Position numbers and translations under genes: made by a program | The notes under the pieces: model-generated | Seen by the model: only the letters and a program-made list of their open reading frames with translations | What the model was told of the DNA's origin: nothing | The model's database searches: none | In this document: positions 43,304-51,335 of the stretch, piece after piece | Layout: the number at the start of each line of letters is the position of its first letter | How positions within the stretch are numbered: position 1 is the first letter of the stretch | Assembly: GCA_001898485.1 (NCBI GenBank) | Contig: MKTY01000019.1 | Coordinates: 124,001-188,000, forward strand | Length of the DNA: 64,000 nt | Reading direction: 5' to 3' | Source: Sphingobacteriales bacterium 46-32 | GTDB taxonomy: Bacteria > Bacteroidota > Bacteroidia > Chitinophagales > Chitinophagaceae

Positions 43304-44050
43304 ATGCGCAGCTATCTGCAGATACTATTAGCCGTCGCCTGTTTCTCTTTCCTGTCGCCGGTACAGGCAAGGCAACAAACACGCTCCAATCCCGATGTAC
43401 AGGCCGTAAACGGGTTTGTGGGATTACAGGTGGGTATTCCCTCTGCAGAAATGCAACGGGCTATCCGCAACCGCATGGGCAACCTGGGGTTTGGGCTTGG
43501 ATTGATAATACTTAGCGATCCGGGTACCTGGGGAGCACATAAGTATAAAAGTTCATTCCGGTTGGGTGGTGAGCTGGGGTACAGTTATTATGGTCGTTTT
43601 TTGTCAGATGTCAGCATCAATGGATATGAGGGTAGCTACAAGACCAGTTATGGCCTGGCTCAACTCAATGTGGTGATACAGGTTCGTCCACCTCAGTTGC
43701 AGCGTATCAGCCCGTTTGTGGATGTAATAGCCGGCGGCAATTTTTATTTGTCACGTACAAAGGAAAACCTGAATGCCATTGAGTCGGCCCTGGGTATTCA
43801 GGGTTTTGAAATCGATAGTTATGCCAGTGTGGGATTTAATAAAGGAATTGCAGCCGGATTCAGTTTTGGCGACCCGGATCTGTACCGCGCGCCACGGCTT
43901 ACGATTCGCCTTTCGTACAACATGGGTTCCGATATCCATTATGTAGAGCGTAATTCACTTACCTATAATCCCGGTGCTAACCGTCTCGAATACCAGGTCG
44001 GCCGGGCACCGGTCAGATATTTTATGGCACAGCTGGGAGTGAGTTTTTGA
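43304..44050 (+). CDS. Exported beta-barrel-like protein
   Basis: A 248-residue protein from the ATG at 43304 with signal peptide MRSYLQILLAVACFSFLSPV; seven upstream codons are open but lack signal character. The mature part shows alternating strands (VNGFVGLQVGIPSAEM, YSYYGRFLSDVSING, LTIRLSYNMGSDIHY) and ends in a terminal Phe (AQLGVSF) typical of outer membrane barrels. Family not recognised. It is divergent from dnaX, with 118 bp between start codons. Confidence 0.65.
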   Translation: MRSYLQILLAVACFSFLSPVQARQQTRSNPDVQAVNGFVGLQVGIPSAEMQRAIRNRMGNLGFGLGLIILSDPGTWGAHKYKSSFRLGGELGYSYYGRFLSDVSINGYEGSYKTSYGLAQLNVVIQVRPPQLQRISPFVDVIAGGNFYLSRTKENLNAIESALGIQGFEIDSYASVGFNKGIAAGFSFGDPDLYRAPRLTIRLSYNMGSDIHYVERNSLTYNPGANRLEYQVGRAPVRYFMAQLGVSF

Positions 44051-44172
44051 TTTGAAGATTTGGTGATTTGAAAATTTGAAGATGGACGATTATAGCGTTC
44101 ATTTATCACCCGTCCAAATGATTCATTTGATGACAGCTGAAAGATATTTTAGTGTAGAGCAAAGCTTTAACC

Positions 44173-44458: not shown

Positions 44459-45652
44459 CTACAGTTTTGGGTGTGGTTCAAACTCCTTACTGCGATCGAA
44501 CAGGTAGCGGTATGTAGTGAGAATACGGCTGCGGTAGGTGCCGAGGTTTTCGGCTACATTGATCATTTTGGGATTGAACTCGCCGATCCATTGCATTTCA
44601 TAATCTTCATAGATAGGTTGTCCAATAATATATTCTCCATTTTCGATACGCAGGCGCTGAATATGTTTGCAGCCTTCCACGATCATATAACTATCTACAC
44701 CCTTGCCCTGCCATTCCGGAACAATGCCGAATACGAGGCCCACAAACTTTTTACAGGGCTTTGTTTTTTTGACCCAGAGAAATTTAAGTTTTTGGAGCAG
44801 TCCAAACCGGCCATGCAGGTGTTTGAACCATTGATTAAGATCGGGCAGGTTGATCCAGATGGCAATGGGTTCATTGTTGTGATAAACAAACCAGTTGATT
44901 TTTTCATCCATTACCGGCTTCATGGCTTTGAACATCTTGCGCACTACTTTTTCTTCGAGTTGTTTCATACCACCATGTCCGGCCCAGGCTTTATTGTATA
45001 CGATGGTAAAATCGCGGGCAAATTTGTCGAGCTCATTTTTCCGGATATGTGCTGCGCTGAATGCGGGATTACTTGCCACGTCGGCATGGCGGTCATAAAA
45101 CTTCTGCTGCAGCCGGTCTTTTGCCTTTAATGCAAAGCAGACCTGGTTGTAATAGTTGCGAAAGCCATAGCGCTCAAACAACTCCTGGTAATAAGGCTGA
45201 TTGTAGTTGAGGCAATATACGGGCGGTTCAAAGCCCTTTACCAGCAGGCCCCACCAGCGGTCACGTTCTCCAAAATTGATGGGACCGTCCATCGCCGTCA
45301 TGCCATGCTGCAGGAGCCAGTGTTTGGCCACATCAAACAACATATCTGCTGCTTCCTGGTCATTGATGCAATCGAAGAAGCCGATGCCGCCTACTGGACC
45401 CTCATCGTTTTTGTTTTTATATTTTTTATTGATAAAAGCGGCTATCCGGCCAATGAGTTGGCCGTTTTTATCGCGTAATATCCAGCGGATAGCCTGCCCC
45501 TGGCGAAAGGTTTTATTTTTAGCGGGGTCAAAAACGTCTTCCACGTCTTTGTGAAGCGGCTGAATATAGTTGGGGTCTTTTCCGTTGATGATCGTATTAA
45601 CCTGTAAAAAAGCTTTGGCGGTAGCGGTATCTTTTACTTCTGTCAATTGCAT
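44459..45652 (-). CDS. GNAT-like acetyltransferase family protein
   Basis: A 397-residue protein from the ATG at 45652. The N-terminal half has ILRDKNGQLIGRIAAFINKK near residue 57 and GFFDCINDQEAADMLFDVAK near 92. The C-terminal half has the CoA-loop-like segment VFGIVPEWQGKGVDSYMIVE near 310. The pattern is of the long GNAT-like proteins seen in Bacteroidota whose substrates are unknown. A weaker upstream start adds eight residues. It lies 25 bp after the sigma factor gene on the same strand. Confidence 0.7.
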   Translation of the reverse strand: MQLTEVKDTATAKAFLQVNTIINGKDPNYIQPLHKDVEDVFDPAKNKTFRQGQAIRWILRDKNGQLIGRIAAFINKKYKNKNDEGPVGGIGFFDCINDQEAADMLFDVAKHWLLQHGMTAMDGPINFGERDRWWGLLVKGFEPPVYCLNYNQPYYQELFERYGFRNYYNQVCFALKAKDRLQQKFYDRHADVASNPAFSAAHIRKNELDKFARDFTIVYNKAWAGHGGMKQLEEKVVRKMFKAMKPVMDEKINWFVYHNNEPIAIWINLPDLNQWFKHLHGRFGLLQKLKFLWVKKTKPCKKFVGLVFGIVPEWQGKGVDSYMIVEGCKHIQRLRIENGEYIIGQPIYEDYEMQWIGEFNPKMINVAENLGTYRSRILTTYRYLFDRSKEFEPHPKL

Positions 45653-45677
45653 GCGCAAAAGTAATGAAGTCGGCAAA

Positions 45678-46865
45678 CTAGCAGCCTTTCATCTTTTCTT
45701 TTAACAAGGCAGCTTCAGCCGGCGAGGGAGCCAGTGCCAGGGCCTCGAGGTAGCAGATACGGGCCTGATGGGGCCGGCCCAGCAGCTGGTATACCTGGCC
45801 GAGTGATGCATGGTAGAGATAATAGTTGTCAAGTCCTTTGATAGCTTTCAGCTCCAGCAGCGCCTGATCGGGACTTTCTGCCCAGGCTGCCGCAATGGCT
45901 TTATTCATGGCTACAATAGCGCCAGGGCAGACCCGGTACAGGTGCTCATATAAAGTATAGATGGTTTTCCAGTCGGTGGATGCGAAATCTGCGGCAGATG
46001 CATGCAGCGAAGCAATTGACGCCTCGAGATGATAACGCGATACTTCGAAAGGAAGGGAGGCTTCTTCCAAATAATGAAAGCCCTGTTGCAACAGCCCTTT
46101 ATGCCAGAGGCTGCGGTCCTGGTGGCTTAATAATACAAGTTGCTGCTGCTCATTAATGCGTGCAGGCAGACGTGCCGCCTGGAAGCAGAGCAGTGCCATC
46201 AGTGCCCTGGTACGAGGCAATGAAGTATAGGCATGGCAGCAAAGAATGAGGCAGAGCCGCATGGCTTCGCGGCAAAGATCTTCGCGAATAGTCTGATCGG
46301 GGTGAGCAGATAGATAGCCTTCATTGAATAAAAGATAAATACAATGCAGAATTACATCTATCCGTACCTGCAGTTCGCGTGCCTGCGGTACTTCCAGTTC
46401 TATATTTTCCTGGCGTATACGCTCACGGGCACGATAGATGCGTTTGGCAATAGTTTCTTCATTACTAAGAAAAGCTCTTGCTATCTCGGCATTGCTGAGT
46501 CCGCAAAGTGTTTTTAATACCAGCGCCATCTGTACTTCTTCCGGAATGCCGGGGTGGCAACAGGCAAACATCATCCGCAGCTGGCTGTCTTCAATCTCAG
46601 CATCGAGGAAGGTCGTGAAGTTATCATCGCTGTTTAATAATTCGGTTTGCTGTTGCTGCTGATAAGCCGGCAGATGGGTATGTTGAAACCGTTGTTGACG
46701 GCGCAGGTGGTCAATAGCTTTATTGCGGGCTACGCGGTGCAGCCAGGCAACCGGCGAATCGGGAATGCCACCATACCCCCACGAGTTCATGGCCTGTAGC
46801 AGGGTGTCCTGTACCAGGTCATGCGCCAGCTCCAGTTGCTGCATACCCAATACGCGGGTAAGCAC
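45678..46865 (-). CDS. ECF sigma factor with C-terminal extension (ECF42/DUF6596 type), 5' end altered
   Basis: Regulator of RNA polymerase promoter choice. The 395 residues from GTG at 46865 hold region 2 (VQDTLLQAMNSW; AWLHRVARNKAIDHLRR), region 4 (LCGLSNAEIARAF, AKRIYRARERIR) and the long C-terminal helical-repeat part typical of ECF42 sigma factors. Homologous sequence continues upstream in frame (VDHLFRTEAGRLVAV), so the GTG start is too late by about 14-25 residues, yet no ATG, GTG or TTG is in frame before the upstream TAG. The further upstream codons lie inside a repeat element. Its usual partner, a YCII gene, lies just upstream. Confidence 0.85.
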   Translation of the reverse strand: MLTRVLGMQQLELAHDLVQDTLLQAMNSWGYGGIPDSPVAWLHRVARNKAIDHLRRQQRFQHTHLPAYQQQQQTELLNSDDNFTTFLDAEIEDSQLRMMFACCHPGIPEEVQMALVLKTLCGLSNAEIARAFLSNEETIAKRIYRARERIRQENIELEVPQARELQVRIDVILHCIYLLFNEGYLSAHPDQTIREDLCREAMRLCLILCCHAYTSLPRTRALMALLCFQAARLPARINEQQQLVLLSHQDRSLWHKGLLQQGFHYLEEASLPFEVSRYHLEASIASLHASAADFASTDWKTIYTLYEHLYRVCPGAIVAMNKAIAAAWAESPDQALLELKAIKGLDNYYLYHASLGQVYQLLGRPHQARICYLEALALAPSPAEAALLKEKMKGC

Positions 46866-46909
46866 GGCAACCAGGCGTCCGGCTTCCGTACGAAAAAGAT
46901 GATCGACGA

Positions 46910-47030
46910 GTTGATTAACGGGTTGCGTTGATAATGATTTTAAATTCCCTGGTCTGTCTGAGACCTAATTACAATCCCCTGGTCGGTCTGAGACCGACCA
47001 AGGGGTGTTTGTCTGAGACCGACCAGGGGG
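46910..47030. repeat. Palindromic repeat array, family F copy 1
   Basis: A 32-bp sequence (46910-46941) is shared with 49278-49309 at 30 of 32 positions. It is followed by about two and a half copies of a palindromic unit with arms CCCTGGTCGGTCT and AGACCGACCAGGG: 46947-46965 (half), 46976-47005 (full, one extra A in the right arm) and 47008-47030 (half). The array fills the gap between the YCII gene and the sigma gene and supplies the sigma gene's first in-frame codons. Confidence 0.75.
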
Positions 47031-47035
47031 ATTTT

Positions 47036-47380
47036 TTACATATCCATCTTCATGACCTGGCGTACCTGCACAGTACCGCCGAGCTCAAAGTCAGGACAGG
47101 CTTTGGCAATCGATATGGCTTCGTCCATGTCTTTGGCATTGACGATAAAGTAACCACCCACAACTTCCTTACCTTCTGTATATGGGCCATCGGTGACTAC
47201 TTTACCACCGGCACCACTCAGCAGTTTACCGCCTGGCAGCAGCGGCTCACCGGAGTCATAGCGACCTTCCTGGCTCAGTTGCTGTACCCAGGCCAGCCAT
47301 TTACCCATGTGGGCCTGCATTTCATCGGGACTAAGGTGATCGGCCTGGCCGCCATGAAAGATGAGCATAAATTTTTCCAT
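47036..47380 (-). CDS. YCII domain protein, partner of the ECF sigma factor
   Basis: A 114-residue protein of the YCII/DGPF family: MEKFMLIFHGG at the start, ALLPGG-type EPLLPGGKLLSGAG near residue 47, VTDGPYTEGKEVVGGYFIV near 61-80 with the DGP core, and AKACPDFELGGTVQVRQV at the end. Such genes are often the target or partner of ECF41/42-type sigma factors, as the next gene downstream is here. Its biochemical role is unknown. Confidence 0.88.
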   Translation of the reverse strand: MEKFMLIFHGGQADHLSPDEMQAHMGKWLAWVQQLSQEGRYDSGEPLLPGGKLLSGAGGKVVTDGPYTEGKEVVGGYFIVNAKDMDEAISIAKACPDFELGGTVQVRQVMKMDM

Positions 47381-47451
47381 ACGTTTAATTTTTTAGTTAA
47401 AAAGAGATTGTCATCCTAATGACGAATGAGCGGACGGGAATCGGACAGGGA

Positions 47452-47610
47452 GATTTGAAGATTTGATGATTTGAAAATTTGAAGATGTGAGGAGGCGAGC
47501 CGATGTAAGTATTAACGGCTTGCGTATAATAATTGTAAATCATTCAATTAGTACACTAGAAAGCCATATTGACCATCTTCAAATTTTCAAATCATCAAAT
47601 CTTCAAATTC
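47452..47610. repeat. nnnATTTG inverted repeat, family C
   Basis: Left arm 47452-47487 is a run of 8-9-bp units ending in ATTTG (GATTTGAAG, ATTTGATG, ATTTGAAA). Right arm 47574-47610 is its exact complement over at least 33 bp. The 86-bp centre has no open frame. It lies between the YCII gene start and the L,D-transpeptidase gene stop. Confidence 0.85.
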
Positions 47611-47632
47611 ATAGGTGCTTTTACAAAACAAC

Positions 47633-49228
47633 TCATCGCTCCCCAAACAGCTGCTCCGCCATTTTTTTATCATGACCATAAATATCATCGCGGAAGTTGA
47701 GCAGGCCTTCACTGTCTACCCAGGCGGTGAAGTAGCCGATAAAGACGGGAATGGTTTGTGGCAGGGTCACCCATGTCTCTTTACCGCCTTTCATCGTCTT
47801 ATCGATTTTGTCAACCGGCCAGTCTTTATTGCCTTCGAGCAGGTAAAGCGCCAGTTTGCGCGGCTCGGCCAGGCGAATGCAGCCATGGCTGAAGGCGCGG
47901 CTGGTTTCGTTAAACAGGCTCTTGGCCGGAGTATCGTGCAGGTAAATATTATAGCTGTTGGGAAAAAGAAATTTCACCAGTCCCAGTGAGTTGCCCGGTC
48001 CGGGTTTTTGACGAACCGATCCGTTGATCATTTCCATATTGTGGCGGGCCAGGTAGTTTTTGTTTTTGCGGATACCGGGCAGGATTTCTTTCTGTACAAT
48101 GCTGTTGGGTACATTCCAGTAGGGGCTGAATACAATATACTTCATGTCGCCCCGGAAAATAACGGTGTTGTGCGCAGCACTGCCCACCACCACATTCATC
48201 TTCCAGTTGAGTTTACCATCCTTAAATACAAAAAGCTGGTAGGCGGGGATATTTACGAGCAGGTAATCGGCGGGTGGGTTGGCCGGTACCCAGCGCATAC
48301 GTTCCATATTGACGAGCAGTTGACGAATGCGATCTTCGAGCGGGCGGTTGAGTTCTTTGATCATGGAAGTGCCGATGACGCCATCTTCTTTGATGCCATA
48401 GCGGCGTTGAAATTGCTTCACTGCTTTTACCATTATACTGTCAAAGACCTGCAGGCTGTCGGTGGTTTTAAGATCGCCCAGGCTTTGCAGCCGTTTGCGG
48501 ATGGCGCCAATGGCTACCGAACTGTCGCCGGGCTTATACGATTTCTGGGTAAGGTTAATAGGTTGCCAGGCGCCTTCTTTTTCCAGTTCGTAATAGCGCA
48601 GCAATTGCTGGCGCAGCAGGTTGTACTGTACGTATACCGGATCATATTTGTCGATGTCCTTTCCTTTATTGCTGATCAGCGAGTCGAGTACACTGGTCAG
48701 GTTGAGTTTTTTGCGGGGAATATACCAGCCCAGGTCGCGGGCATTGATCTTGTCGTTGCCCTGGTAGGCTTTGGCTGCATAGCGGAAAAAGCTGCTCGTA
48801 AGCAGCAACTCCAGTTTTGTGCGATCTTCCTGCAGCGGCTGATAACGTCCGCTATCGGCTTCCATGGTATCGAGCAGATGATGCAACTCAGGGTTGTAAA
48901 TGGAACTGTCTTTGGCATAGCTGATATACTGGTTCTGCATCTGCAGAAAGCTATAGGCATACTCCGTAAGTCCGCTGCTGTCGAACCAGGCCATCTGGTA
49001 GTTGCGGCCATTATAAAAATTACGAACCTGCAGGGCGAGGCTGTCGGGCAGTTTTTCGGCCTGCACATAATTTTCCATACGGGTACTGTCAAAAAAAAGT
49101 TCGGTGTAGGAGTTGGCCACATTGATGGTTGTATCGCGCGGCACGATCACTGTGTTTTTCTGCGGGTCAGCATTCTGACAGGCTGCGGCCAGTAATACGA
49201 TACTAAATACAAAGAGAATTTGTTTCAT
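47633..49228 (-). CDS. L,D-transpeptidase (YcbB-like), lipoprotein
   Basis: Crosslinks peptidoglycan by 3-3 bonds or anchors proteins to it. The 531-residue protein has a lipoprotein signal (FSIVLLAAACQ), an N-terminal helical part, a peptidoglycan-binding domain (about 255-290, VKQFQRRYGIKEDGVIGTSM) and the YkuD domain with VNIPAYQLFVFKDGK near 320 and the catalytic motif SHGCIRLAEP near 460. Length and order match the YcbB group. It is divergent from the lipoprotein cassette. Confidence 0.92.
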   Translation of the reverse strand: MKQILFVFSIVLLAAACQNADPQKNTVIVPRDTTINVANSYTELFFDSTRMENYVQAEKLPDSLALQVRNFYNGRNYQMAWFDSSGLTEYAYSFLQMQNQYISYAKDSSIYNPELHHLLDTMEADSGRYQPLQEDRTKLELLLTSSFFRYAAKAYQGNDKINARDLGWYIPRKKLNLTSVLDSLISNKGKDIDKYDPVYVQYNLLRQQLLRYYELEKEGAWQPINLTQKSYKPGDSSVAIGAIRKRLQSLGDLKTTDSLQVFDSIMVKAVKQFQRRYGIKEDGVIGTSMIKELNRPLEDRIRQLLVNMERMRWVPANPPADYLLVNIPAYQLFVFKDGKLNWKMNVVVGSAAHNTVIFRGDMKYIVFSPYWNVPNSIVQKEILPGIRKNKNYLARHNMEMINGSVRQKPGPGNSLGLVKFLFPNSYNIYLHDTPAKSLFNETSRAFSHGCIRLAEPRKLALYLLEGNKDWPVDKIDKTMKGGKETWVTLPQTIPVFIGYFTAWVDSEGLLNFRDDIYGHDKKMAEQLFGER

Positions 49229-49620
49229 GAGGATAGCTGTTGAAAAGGTGTAAGGTATAGGGGGTGAAGGTACGAAGGTTGATTAACAGGTTGGGTTGAT
49301 AATGATTTTGCCCCCCTGGTCGGTCTGAGACCGACCAGGGGGATGAGGGGGAGCAAGGCTATTCATTTTTTTATGATTAAACTCCGATCTTCCAAATTGC
49401 TAAACTAGCTTAAACAGAAAGTCTTTGTGGGTGGAAGGGAACTTAATTACTTCTAAGGGTATATATGTTATTGGGGAGAGATGATTTTTTAAGTTTATCC
49501 AAAGAATAATATTAATCCTGTTTTAATTATTTTGGTTGCTTTCTGTTTTTTTTAATAAGAGTTTTTTTAGTCTAAAATTATTTATTTTGTGGACCATTCT
49601 AAATACTTAAACCTTTTACT
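49229..49620. other. Gene-free AT-rich gap
   Basis: Apart from repeat F at its left end the gap has no gene. From about 49380 base composition shifts to clearly AT-rich, with long T-runs (for example near 49545-49570), and stays so through the next two genes. It should contain the promoter of the lipoprotein cassette; a TTATTTTGTGG near 49590 resembles a -7 box but is not a perfect match. Confidence 0.5.
49278..49342. repeat. Palindromic repeat, family F copy 2
   Basis: The 32-bp sequence shared with 46910-46941 is at 49278-49309. It is followed at 49312-49342 by a perfect 31-bp palindrome (arms CCCCCTGGTCGGTCT and AGACCGACCAGGGGG with one central G). It sits 50 bp upstream of the L,D-transpeptidase start. 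Confidence 0.8.
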
Positions 49621-49669
49621 ATGAGAAGAACGCTATCGGCGTTCTCGATGCATTTTTTGCACTTTTTTT

Positions 49670-50293
49670 ATGCTTTTGGGCTGTCAAAAAGAAAATAGAA
49701 GTCTTTCCCAATTTCCTGATCTTGAAAGTTCTGTACAATTTAGTTTAGCAGAAGACAAAGCTTGGTTTGATTATAAGAAACAAAACGAACTAGTTTCAAA
49801 GCGTGATGAAGAAGGGAACCTTTTTTCAACTGCGCGGGCTGATTCGGGTACAACTCCCACCGTTGACCAGAACTGTACAGAGGTAAAAGAAAGTATGGCA
49901 GGTCATGCAGTGTCGATACCAGAAAGCATTAGTTTAATTAGTGAGAATACATCAGCTCAAACTCCAACGAGGACAAAAGCGTATGTTTGGGTGCTATATC
50001 AGCAGAATTGGGGACTTTGGAGTTTTTCCAGTCACGAAGAAGGCGTTCATAAAAAAAATGGAACCAATTGGCAATGGCAGTCTTTAACACATAAGTCGAT
50101 TAGCAGATCAGGTCTTTTTGCTGGCGGTACAGTTAACTGCGAAGTAAATACATCTATTCCTGAAATTGGGGTTTATAATGCAGGTATGCAATTAAATTAC
50201 ACGATTACAATAAGCGTCCTTTGTAAGGGGTCTCCCCTTGGTGCCTCCGGGACATATACTACCAACAGCCCAATCTGGAATGTCAATGATTGA
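49670..50293 (+). CDS. Lipoprotein-like gene with signal peptide split by a T7 run
   Basis: From ATG 49670 the product is 207 residues and starts MLLGCQKENRS, which is only the lipobox end of a lipoprotein signal. The missing part is encoded just upstream in another frame from ATG 49621 (MRRTLSAFSMHFLHFF). Removing one T from the seven at 49663-49669 joins the two into a perfect lipoprotein signal ending LLGC. So this is phase variation, a sequencing error or recent loss. The mature protein has a beta-rich part (AYVWVLYQQNWGLWSFSSHE) of no known family. Codon use is AT-rich unlike the neighbours. Confidence 0.6.
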   Translation: MLLGCQKENRSLSQFPDLESSVQFSLAEDKAWFDYKKQNELVSKRDEEGNLFSTARADSGTTPTVDQNCTEVKESMAGHAVSIPESISLISENTSAQTPTRTKAYVWVLYQQNWGLWSFSSHEEGVHKKNGTNWQWQSLTHKSISRSGLFAGGTVNCEVNTSIPEIGVYNAGMQLNYTITISVLCKGSPLGASGTYTTNSPIWNVND

Positions 50294-51068
50294 TCACATA
50301 TATACCAAGCCCGGAAAACGGTACGTGGGTATAGCTATTGTCTTACTTATAATGATAGTAGCCTGTGCTTATAAGCCGATGAGTAGGGATGATTTACTCG
50401 CAATACGATTAAAAGTGACCTTTCAGATGATGGGGAAAGATTCGCCCGGACTTCTTAATGGCGGATTCTCTTACAATATCGTTTACTATAAAGGATTGAC
50501 ATTGTATTATTCAACAGATACCCTTATTGCAGTGAAATCTTATTCAGAGACATCGGGTAAGCCTGATACAGTCGAAATCCCTGGCAGCACTTTTTTCGTT
50601 TTTCAGGAAAAGCAAAAGCATGGCCTGCTGTTTACTTCGCTGGAAGATAAAAAACCGCGTATTGTCAACGCCGACTCAGCACTTAATGCCATGTTATCGC
50701 TCGATTCAAAAATGTTTGACGTGGAAGATGGTATTCTTGTCTACAAAAATACGGTAGGTGATTCTGCCTGGCATGAATCTTATTGTTATTTGAATAAGAA
50801 AGATGCTTCTTACCCGGATACCATGAATTTGTTTTTTTCAGATGAGCTGAAAGAAATAAAATTCTCGCTTTCGCCAAACGAAGAGCGGGCGAGGAACAAA
50901 AAACTGGTAAAAGCCGAATTTGTATATAATCCATACTATGATCAAACACAGTTGCAGCAAATGCCGGGTCGCAAAATGAGTTTTGAGATTTCGCCGGTTG
51001 AACTGGCGGCACCTCAGAAATTCGTTACTTTTTTTGAAGCAGCAGAAAAAACGATCCTATTAAAGTAA
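50286..51068 (+). CDS. Hypothetical membrane-anchored protein
   Basis: The ATG at 50286 overlaps the end of the upstream gene by eight bases, so the two are translationally coupled. The 260-residue product has an N-terminal hydrophobic segment ending in a lipobox-like IMIVAC (VGIAIVLLIMIVACAYKP), then a polar, beta-rich part (GGFSYNIVYYKGLTLYYST; IVYKNTVGDSAWHESYCYLN). No family recognised. An upstream start at 50238 lies inside the other gene and is rejected. Both genes of the pair may act together at the envelope. Confidence 0.6.
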   Translation: MIDHIYTKPGKRYVGIAIVLLIMIVACAYKPMSRDDLLAIRLKVTFQMMGKDSPGLLNGGFSYNIVYYKGLTLYYSTDTLIAVKSYSETSGKPDTVEIPGSTFFVFQEKQKHGLLFTSLEDKKPRIVNADSALNAMLSLDSKMFDVEDGILVYKNTVGDSAWHESYCYLNKKDASYPDTMNLFFSDELKEIKFSLSPNEERARNKKLVKAEFVYNPYYDQTQLQQMPGRKMSFEISPVELAAPQKFVTFFEAAEKTILLK

Positions 51069-51200
51069 GATTTTATCAGGGAAGAATTGTTTTTCGCGGG
51101 AAAGATGATACAATGGAAATACACTGGAGTAGTGCAGAAACGCGAATTGGATGATCTTGTGTGTAAATTTTTACCCTGCAGGTGTTTTTTCAAGAGATAA

Positions 51201-51252
51201 ATAACCGGAACGCCCTGTCTATGCAGTAATGCAGGCAGGGCGTTCCGGTTAT
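51201..51252. terminator. 17-bp perfect hairpin between convergent genes
   Basis: ATAACCGGAACGCCCTG (51201-51217) and its complement (51236-51252) enclose an 18-base loop. It lies between the cassette gene ending at 51068 and the S9 peptidase ending at 51336. There is no adjacent T-run, so it may block transcription from both sides or be a repeat. Confidence 0.5.
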
Positions 51253-51335
51253 GGTGTTCCAAAACTTATTAGCTTCGGTCGGGGAAGCAGTCATTCAGCA
51301 GTTGTGCTGCGGGTTTAGTTAGAGACATATTTGCT

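Follow-up and report, generated by a model that had tools for sequence, protein, structure and literature searches.

Our analysis of a 64,000-nt stretch of DNA from contig MKTY01000019.1 (the window), of which the piece at 46866-47030 was inspected first, suggests that an ECF42-like σ gene lost its TTG start codon to TTA through a single substitution. We give somewhat better than even chances to a joint reading in which this start is native to the gene and changed from TTG to TTA, a little full-length σ is still produced through UUA or a neighbouring ACG, and a stray copy of the gene's 5' end arose in association with a palindrome.

A σ frame without a canonical start codon

The minus-strand σ frame reads TAG GTC TCA GAC AGA CCA GGG AAT TTA AAA TCA TTA TCA ACG CAA CCC GTT AAT CAA CTC GTC GAT CAT CTT TTT. 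Between the TAG (46967-46965) and the GTG (46865-46863), codon reading finds zero ATG, GTG or TTG, as an earlier note on this DNA had claimed; the in-frame near-cognates in this interval are ACG at 46928, ACG at 46889 and CTG at 46874 (Table 1). Frameshifting from the YCII gene into σ was considered and rejected, because the TAG closes the σ frame 20 codons before the DHLF motif.

Table 1 Features of the σ locus and of the second copy of its 5' end (window coordinates)
Feature	Positions	Strand	Basis or remark
ECF42-like σ gene, from TTA codon	45678..46934	-	Open frame, 417 residues after TTA, then stop; Pfam matches; 96% protein identity to the G001 orthologue
ORF with ATG/GTG/TTG starts only (GTG start)	45678..46865	-	Without residues 1-22, among them HLFR and most of the first σ2-domain helix
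32-bp block, first copy	46910..46941	-	25 σ-gene bases from TTA on and 7 leader bases
In-frame ACG	46926..46928	-	Only near-cognate codon found within the usual start zone
TTA codon	46932..46934	-	At the position of the G001 TTG start; base-by-base comparison with G001
Palindrome array between YCII and σ genes	46946..47030		Predicted fold of the 141-nt leader, -52.9 kcal/mol
In-frame TAG stop upstream of σ frame	46965..46967	-	Codon reading
Terminator-like hairpin in σ leader	46976..47004	-	Terminator scan
YCII gene, ATG start	47036..47380	-	Pfam PF03795
L,D-transpeptidase gene, downstream of second block copy	47633..49228	-	Pfam YkuD
32-bp block, second copy	49278..49309	-	Displaced duplicate (best explanation) at edge of homology with G001
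Perfect palindrome beside second block copy	49312..49342		Repeat analysis

The σ product carries Sigma70_r2 (PF04542) and Sigma70_r4_2 (PF08281) above the Pfam cut-offs, so that the core of region 2 and region 4 is present; the Sigma70_r2 match begins at residue 12 of the long frame, and the codons upstream of the GTG therefore encode region 2, as the earlier note had read them. The HLFR motif is kept in 98 of the 102 family members and is invariant in an alignment of 40 sequences (the window and 39 of 80 named loci). DUF6596 lies at residues 190-291, above its cut-off, and TPR_2 matches residues 373-403 with an E-value of 6.5e-5, yet below the Pfam cut-off; the C-terminal part is nearly all helical in the predicted structure model. 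The Pfam results listed and the best 25 of 70 NCBIfam families include no ECF42 group model. The gene has the σ core, a C-terminal extension of ~200 residues with TPR and an adjoining YCII gene that precedes it, the last as the earlier note had said; ECF42 σ factors are likewise described with a long C-terminal extension, TPR matches and an adjoining YCII gene, whereas an unusual start codon is not described in the available part of that account (PMC8999054). These features support its identification as a YCII-linked, ECF42-like σ gene; the earlier note was also right that a normal start codon is missing.

The nearest relative found, G001, belongs to the same genus and is the one close relative used here. 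Its start zone reads TCA-TTG-TCA-ACG vs TCA-TTA-TCA-ACG in the window, its frame then running on as CAG CCC GTC AAT CAA CTG GTC GAT CAT, and the TTG is its sole in-frame ATG, GTG or TTG before DHLF; the 22 codons before the GTG differ between the two genomes by 8 synonymous and 0 nonsynonymous changes. The G001 leader carries a palindrome at the same place (GGTCTGTCTGAGACAGACC); the window leader, by comparison, holds ~30 bp more palindrome sequence and is 6 nt shorter beside the start. Because G001 has the same N-terminal residues, a similar palindrome and a TTG start, the 32-bp block is, on this comparison, the native 5' end of the σ gene, made up of coding sequence and 7 leader bases. The same comparison shows that one substitution (G/A, TTG vs TTA) would account for the loss of the start and that an insertion is not needed; with a single close relative found, the case for an ancestral TTG depends on G001 and on the habit of more distant kin.

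The second copy of the block and its surroundings

The earlier note's 32-bp repeat, with 30 of 32 bases identical, is borne out, and the genome search that it had proposed (5.49 Mb in 27 contigs, two variable sites left open and at most 3 further mismatches) returned these two copies and no third; the reversed control pattern gave 0. The second copy lies 2.3 kb from the σ copy, upstream of an L,D-transpeptidase gene, where ~65 bp (palindrome and block) repeat the σ stretch, and it also reads TTA. Among 29 aligned bases of the σ copy, the second copy and G001, 5 sites vary: at 3 of them, one being the start codon's third base, the second copy matches the window σ gene and not G001; at the other 2 the second copy stands alone, σ being identical to G001. 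Given that all three changes of σ relative to G001 in this stretch, TTA included, are common to both copies, the second copy is best explained as a displaced duplicate of this lineage's σ gene, made after TTG had become TTA. Its TTA argues both against a sequencing error and against a very recent loss of the start. Homology with G001 upstream of the transpeptidase gene stops at the second copy, the alignment resuming at 49278 and below.

The palindrome GGTCGGTCTSAGACCGACC occurs in the window at 46981-46999 and 49318-49336 (0 expected from shuffles), so the earlier note was right to place the same palindrome at both copies; the spacing differs, in that an extra half-palindrome separates the exact palindrome from the block at the σ copy vs a few bases only at the second copy. 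Both block copies lie near palindromes with the same G/C arms, which differ from those of the other matches in the genome, and we infer that the stray copy arose through palindrome-associated template switching or recombination. A mobile REP-like element would appear as dispersed copies of the whole element; what we found is a block present twice and palindrome-like sites that are few and differ in their flanks, as read at the eight other sites fetched. Of 98 family genomes searched, 2 carry similar palindromes; both belong to this genus, whose third member G002 lay outside the set of 98. Two further palindrome sites, the ones to which the comparison between G000 (this genome) and G001 was confined among the remaining G000 sites, are orthologous and apparently intergenic and differ in unit number and arrangement.

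The predicted leader hairpin (-52.9 kcal/mol in the window vs -48.6 in G001) ends 12 nt before the TTA. The main palindrome of G001 stops 17 nt short of the TTG; the outer pairs of the predicted fold end 1 nt before it, and because that fold also nears the start, the shorter spacing in the window may mean nothing. In Flavobacterium johnsoniae the region from -20 to +20 around the start is reported to have less structure, an effect that is stronger in well-translated genes (PMC6847099). Some palindromes are followed by T-runs, which gives them a terminator-like look; the terminator scan alone is weak evidence, because it returned 4 sites in the stretch vs 2.9 expected from shuffles. The promoter scan was without excess (4 sites vs 3.8 expected); 7 Rfam matches, all far below the gathering scores, were taken as chance fits to hairpins; and five spellings of the palindrome found no mention in the literature searched.

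The YCII-σ pair has the L,D-transpeptidase gene on one side and, on the other, a gene encoding a ~400-residue protein (window 44459-49228). Eleven other genomes match both flanking genes, which are direct neighbours in 4 (G002, G005, G006 and G012), with gaps of 41-112 nt between the matched flank stretches and the YCII-σ pair absent; the flanks are 1.3 and 2.2 kb apart in G011 and G010, where the σ matches lie on other contigs, and are on different contigs in 5 of the 11. The pair looks like an acquired cassette and was likely inserted in the G000/G001 lineage.

Other features of this region were also observed. The window has a perfect 35-nt inverted repeat of 8-nt, ATTTGAAG-like units (47453-47487 / 47574-47608) between the transpeptidase and YCII genes, and an array resembling it lies at 44049-44083; the units in G001 between these genes are different (AATGTGCT-like). 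A ~2-kb stretch (49310-51334) contains two ORFs (207 and 276 aa), neither of which matches Pfam or NCBIfam at E 0.001; the stretch was not found in the 11.3-kb G001 contig, where ~0.8 kb at this place lacks a window match. The G002 matches to the transpeptidase and to an oligopeptidase (L135, L161) contain one in-frame stop each.

Start codons across the σ family

Our survey of 110 loci, from which 8 duplicates were dropped, covered 102 distinct σ genes, the window included; for L019, L103, L124 and L125, which have no exact HLF motif, the start distance was set from the alignment. In the start zone (16 to 7 codons before DHLF), 65 of the 102 genes have ATG and 32 only GTG or TTG; in 3 the canonical codons lie only beyond the zone, and 2 have none, namely the window and L044. 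Within the searched zone, the distance from the last ATG, GTG or TTG to DHLF is 8 to 15 codons, mostly 10 to 13; for the TTA of the window it is 10. An in-frame ATG at least 5 codons upstream is absent from 34 of the 102 genes, 31 of which have TTG or GTG in the zone, mostly TTG. As a side observation, L044 (CTG and ATC in its zone) and L034 (with a GTG five codons before the motif) both lack ATG, GTG and TTG in the usual zone and both have CTG there, so CTG starts are possible in these two genes.

A YCII gene lies within 600 nt upstream in 85 of the 102 family members. It starts with ATG in 85/85, vs 25 of the same 85 in which σ is without an in-frame ATG (Fisher p 7.5e-9, a value that overstates the case because the rows are related); the 25 are a strict count, the zone-only count being 28/85, as L032, L052 and L078 have ATG outside the zone. 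On a FastTree tree, in which 35 of 102 rows were labelled weak (L032 and L078 relabelled ATG, L052 left weak), the weak-start label requires at least 16 changes, 10 of them forced by well-supported branches, and clusters more strongly than it does after shuffling (mean, 29 changes). Weak starts therefore recur in this σ gene, as judged from the 34 of 102 without ATG vs the constant ATG of YCII, and the window TTA is, within the family sampled, the extreme of this recurrent weakness.

For comparison, a study of 36 genome groups counted 61,358 AUG, 5,080 GUG and 2,468 UUG ancestral starts, ~11% of them non-AUG (PMC5622118). As here, substitution changes starts there, UUG starts among them; in contrast, its 2,468 ancestral UUG starts switch to AUG, GUG or CUG, and UUA is not mentioned in the available part of that work.

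Life or decay of the σ gene

The σ gene has a gene-wide dN/dS vs G001 of 0.056 (YCII, 0.084; transpeptidase, 0.034); its 18 amino-acid differences all lie at residue 175 or later, the first 174 residues being unchanged. Had the gene been dead since the duplication, the chance of zero core replacements would be 0.0004-0.005 under a rough model that assumes 400 nonsynonymous sites; this second-copy argument for a live gene is itself rough, because it rests on two substitutions. The window branch has 10 derived σ residues vs 4 on the G001 branch (8 vs 3 under a stricter rule), and three neighbouring control genes together have 10 vs 12 (p = 0.18 against σ); the faster window branch is a hint of relaxation.

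The main rival is that the gene is in early decay, its start lost, its translation about nil and other damage yet to accumulate. We regard this as possible, with an appreciable but minor probability: TTA is not a recognised start codon, the window branch gives the hint just described, and the leader differs from that of G001 in the extra palindrome and the shortened stretch at the start; however, the frame is intact across 417 codons, the first 174 residues have zero replacements, and the two private changes of the second copy suggest that the TTA is not brand new. Both the "non-standard codon" and the "dying" readings put forward in the earlier note keep an appreciable probability.

The other alternatives fare worse. 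Translation from the GTG at 46865 would yield an N-terminally shortened σ; no canonical start comes earlier in the frame, and Sigma70_r2 is still recognised in the shorter product from profile position 20 onward, but HLFR would be lost along with 20 of the 26 first-helix residues (predicted model, mean pLDDT 86.6), and the codons upstream differ from G001 by synonymous changes only. We consider a shortened product improbable, and the GTG was rejected as the true start for the loss of HLFR and most of that helix. That the A of TTA is a sequencing or assembly error is highly improbable: it is a single base, but the copy 2.3 kb off also reads TTA. The earlier note had proposed that a repeat element entered between the YCII and σ genes and replaced the original start. 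Palindrome and block do occur twice in one genome; yet G001 has the same N-terminal residues, a palindrome and a TTG start, no third block site exists in the genome and the eight other palindrome sites have different flanks, which leaves the proposal scarcely credible. The note had expected that relatives with the same codons and no repeat would count against it; G001 does have the codons, but it also carries a palindrome.

We return to the joint reading, in which σ is most likely still made, at a low level, from the TTA or the nearby ACG. A single substitution would have turned the TTG start into TTA; UUA 46934-46932 or ACG 46928 would initiate full-length σ inefficiently, preceded by a strong hairpin in the leader that is predicted to end 12 nt before the UUA; and the UUA would represent the extreme of the gene's tendency to weak starts, holding σ below YCII; the stray copy would stem from palindrome-associated copying, by template switching or recombination. 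TTA is two substitutions away from ATG, and in E. coli even CUG is said to yield only 0.86% of AUG (PMC11497404, quoting another paper). The phrase "UUA start codon" was not found among the literature matches listed. The infC reading frame here begins with ATG; this gives no hint of an IF3-type loop and speaks neither for nor against repression by IF3.

The closest precedent is Streptomyces sigR, likewise a σ gene with a start outside ATG, GTG and TTG, whose GTC start is repressed by IF3 and keeps σ low relative to its partner; annotation misplaced that start because the real start codon lies outside the three (PMC5472188). The two cases differ in that Edman sequencing and mutation fixed the position of the sigR start, whereas the window TTA is deduced from sequence; that sigR has an extensive ribosome-binding site, whereas the phylum of the window is described as without Shine-Dalgarno sequences (PMC5472188; PMC6847099); and that the sigR partner is the antisigma factor RsrA (PMC5472188), whereas that of the window is a YCII protein with a putative role.

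The absence of ATG from about one-third of the σ genes, together with ATG in 85/85 YCII genes, suggests a brake on translation of ECF42-like σ relative to YCII, comparable to that on sigR relative to RsrA. A bolder version, which we find rather doubtful, is that weak starts in YCII-ECF42 operons are selected to restrain σ and have changed many times, and that the window would be a case of UUA in a living, selected gene. If σ is still made, this locus would represent natural initiation outside the ATG, GTG and TTG set used in gene calling, and would do so in a phylum whose translation dispenses with Shine-Dalgarno sequences.
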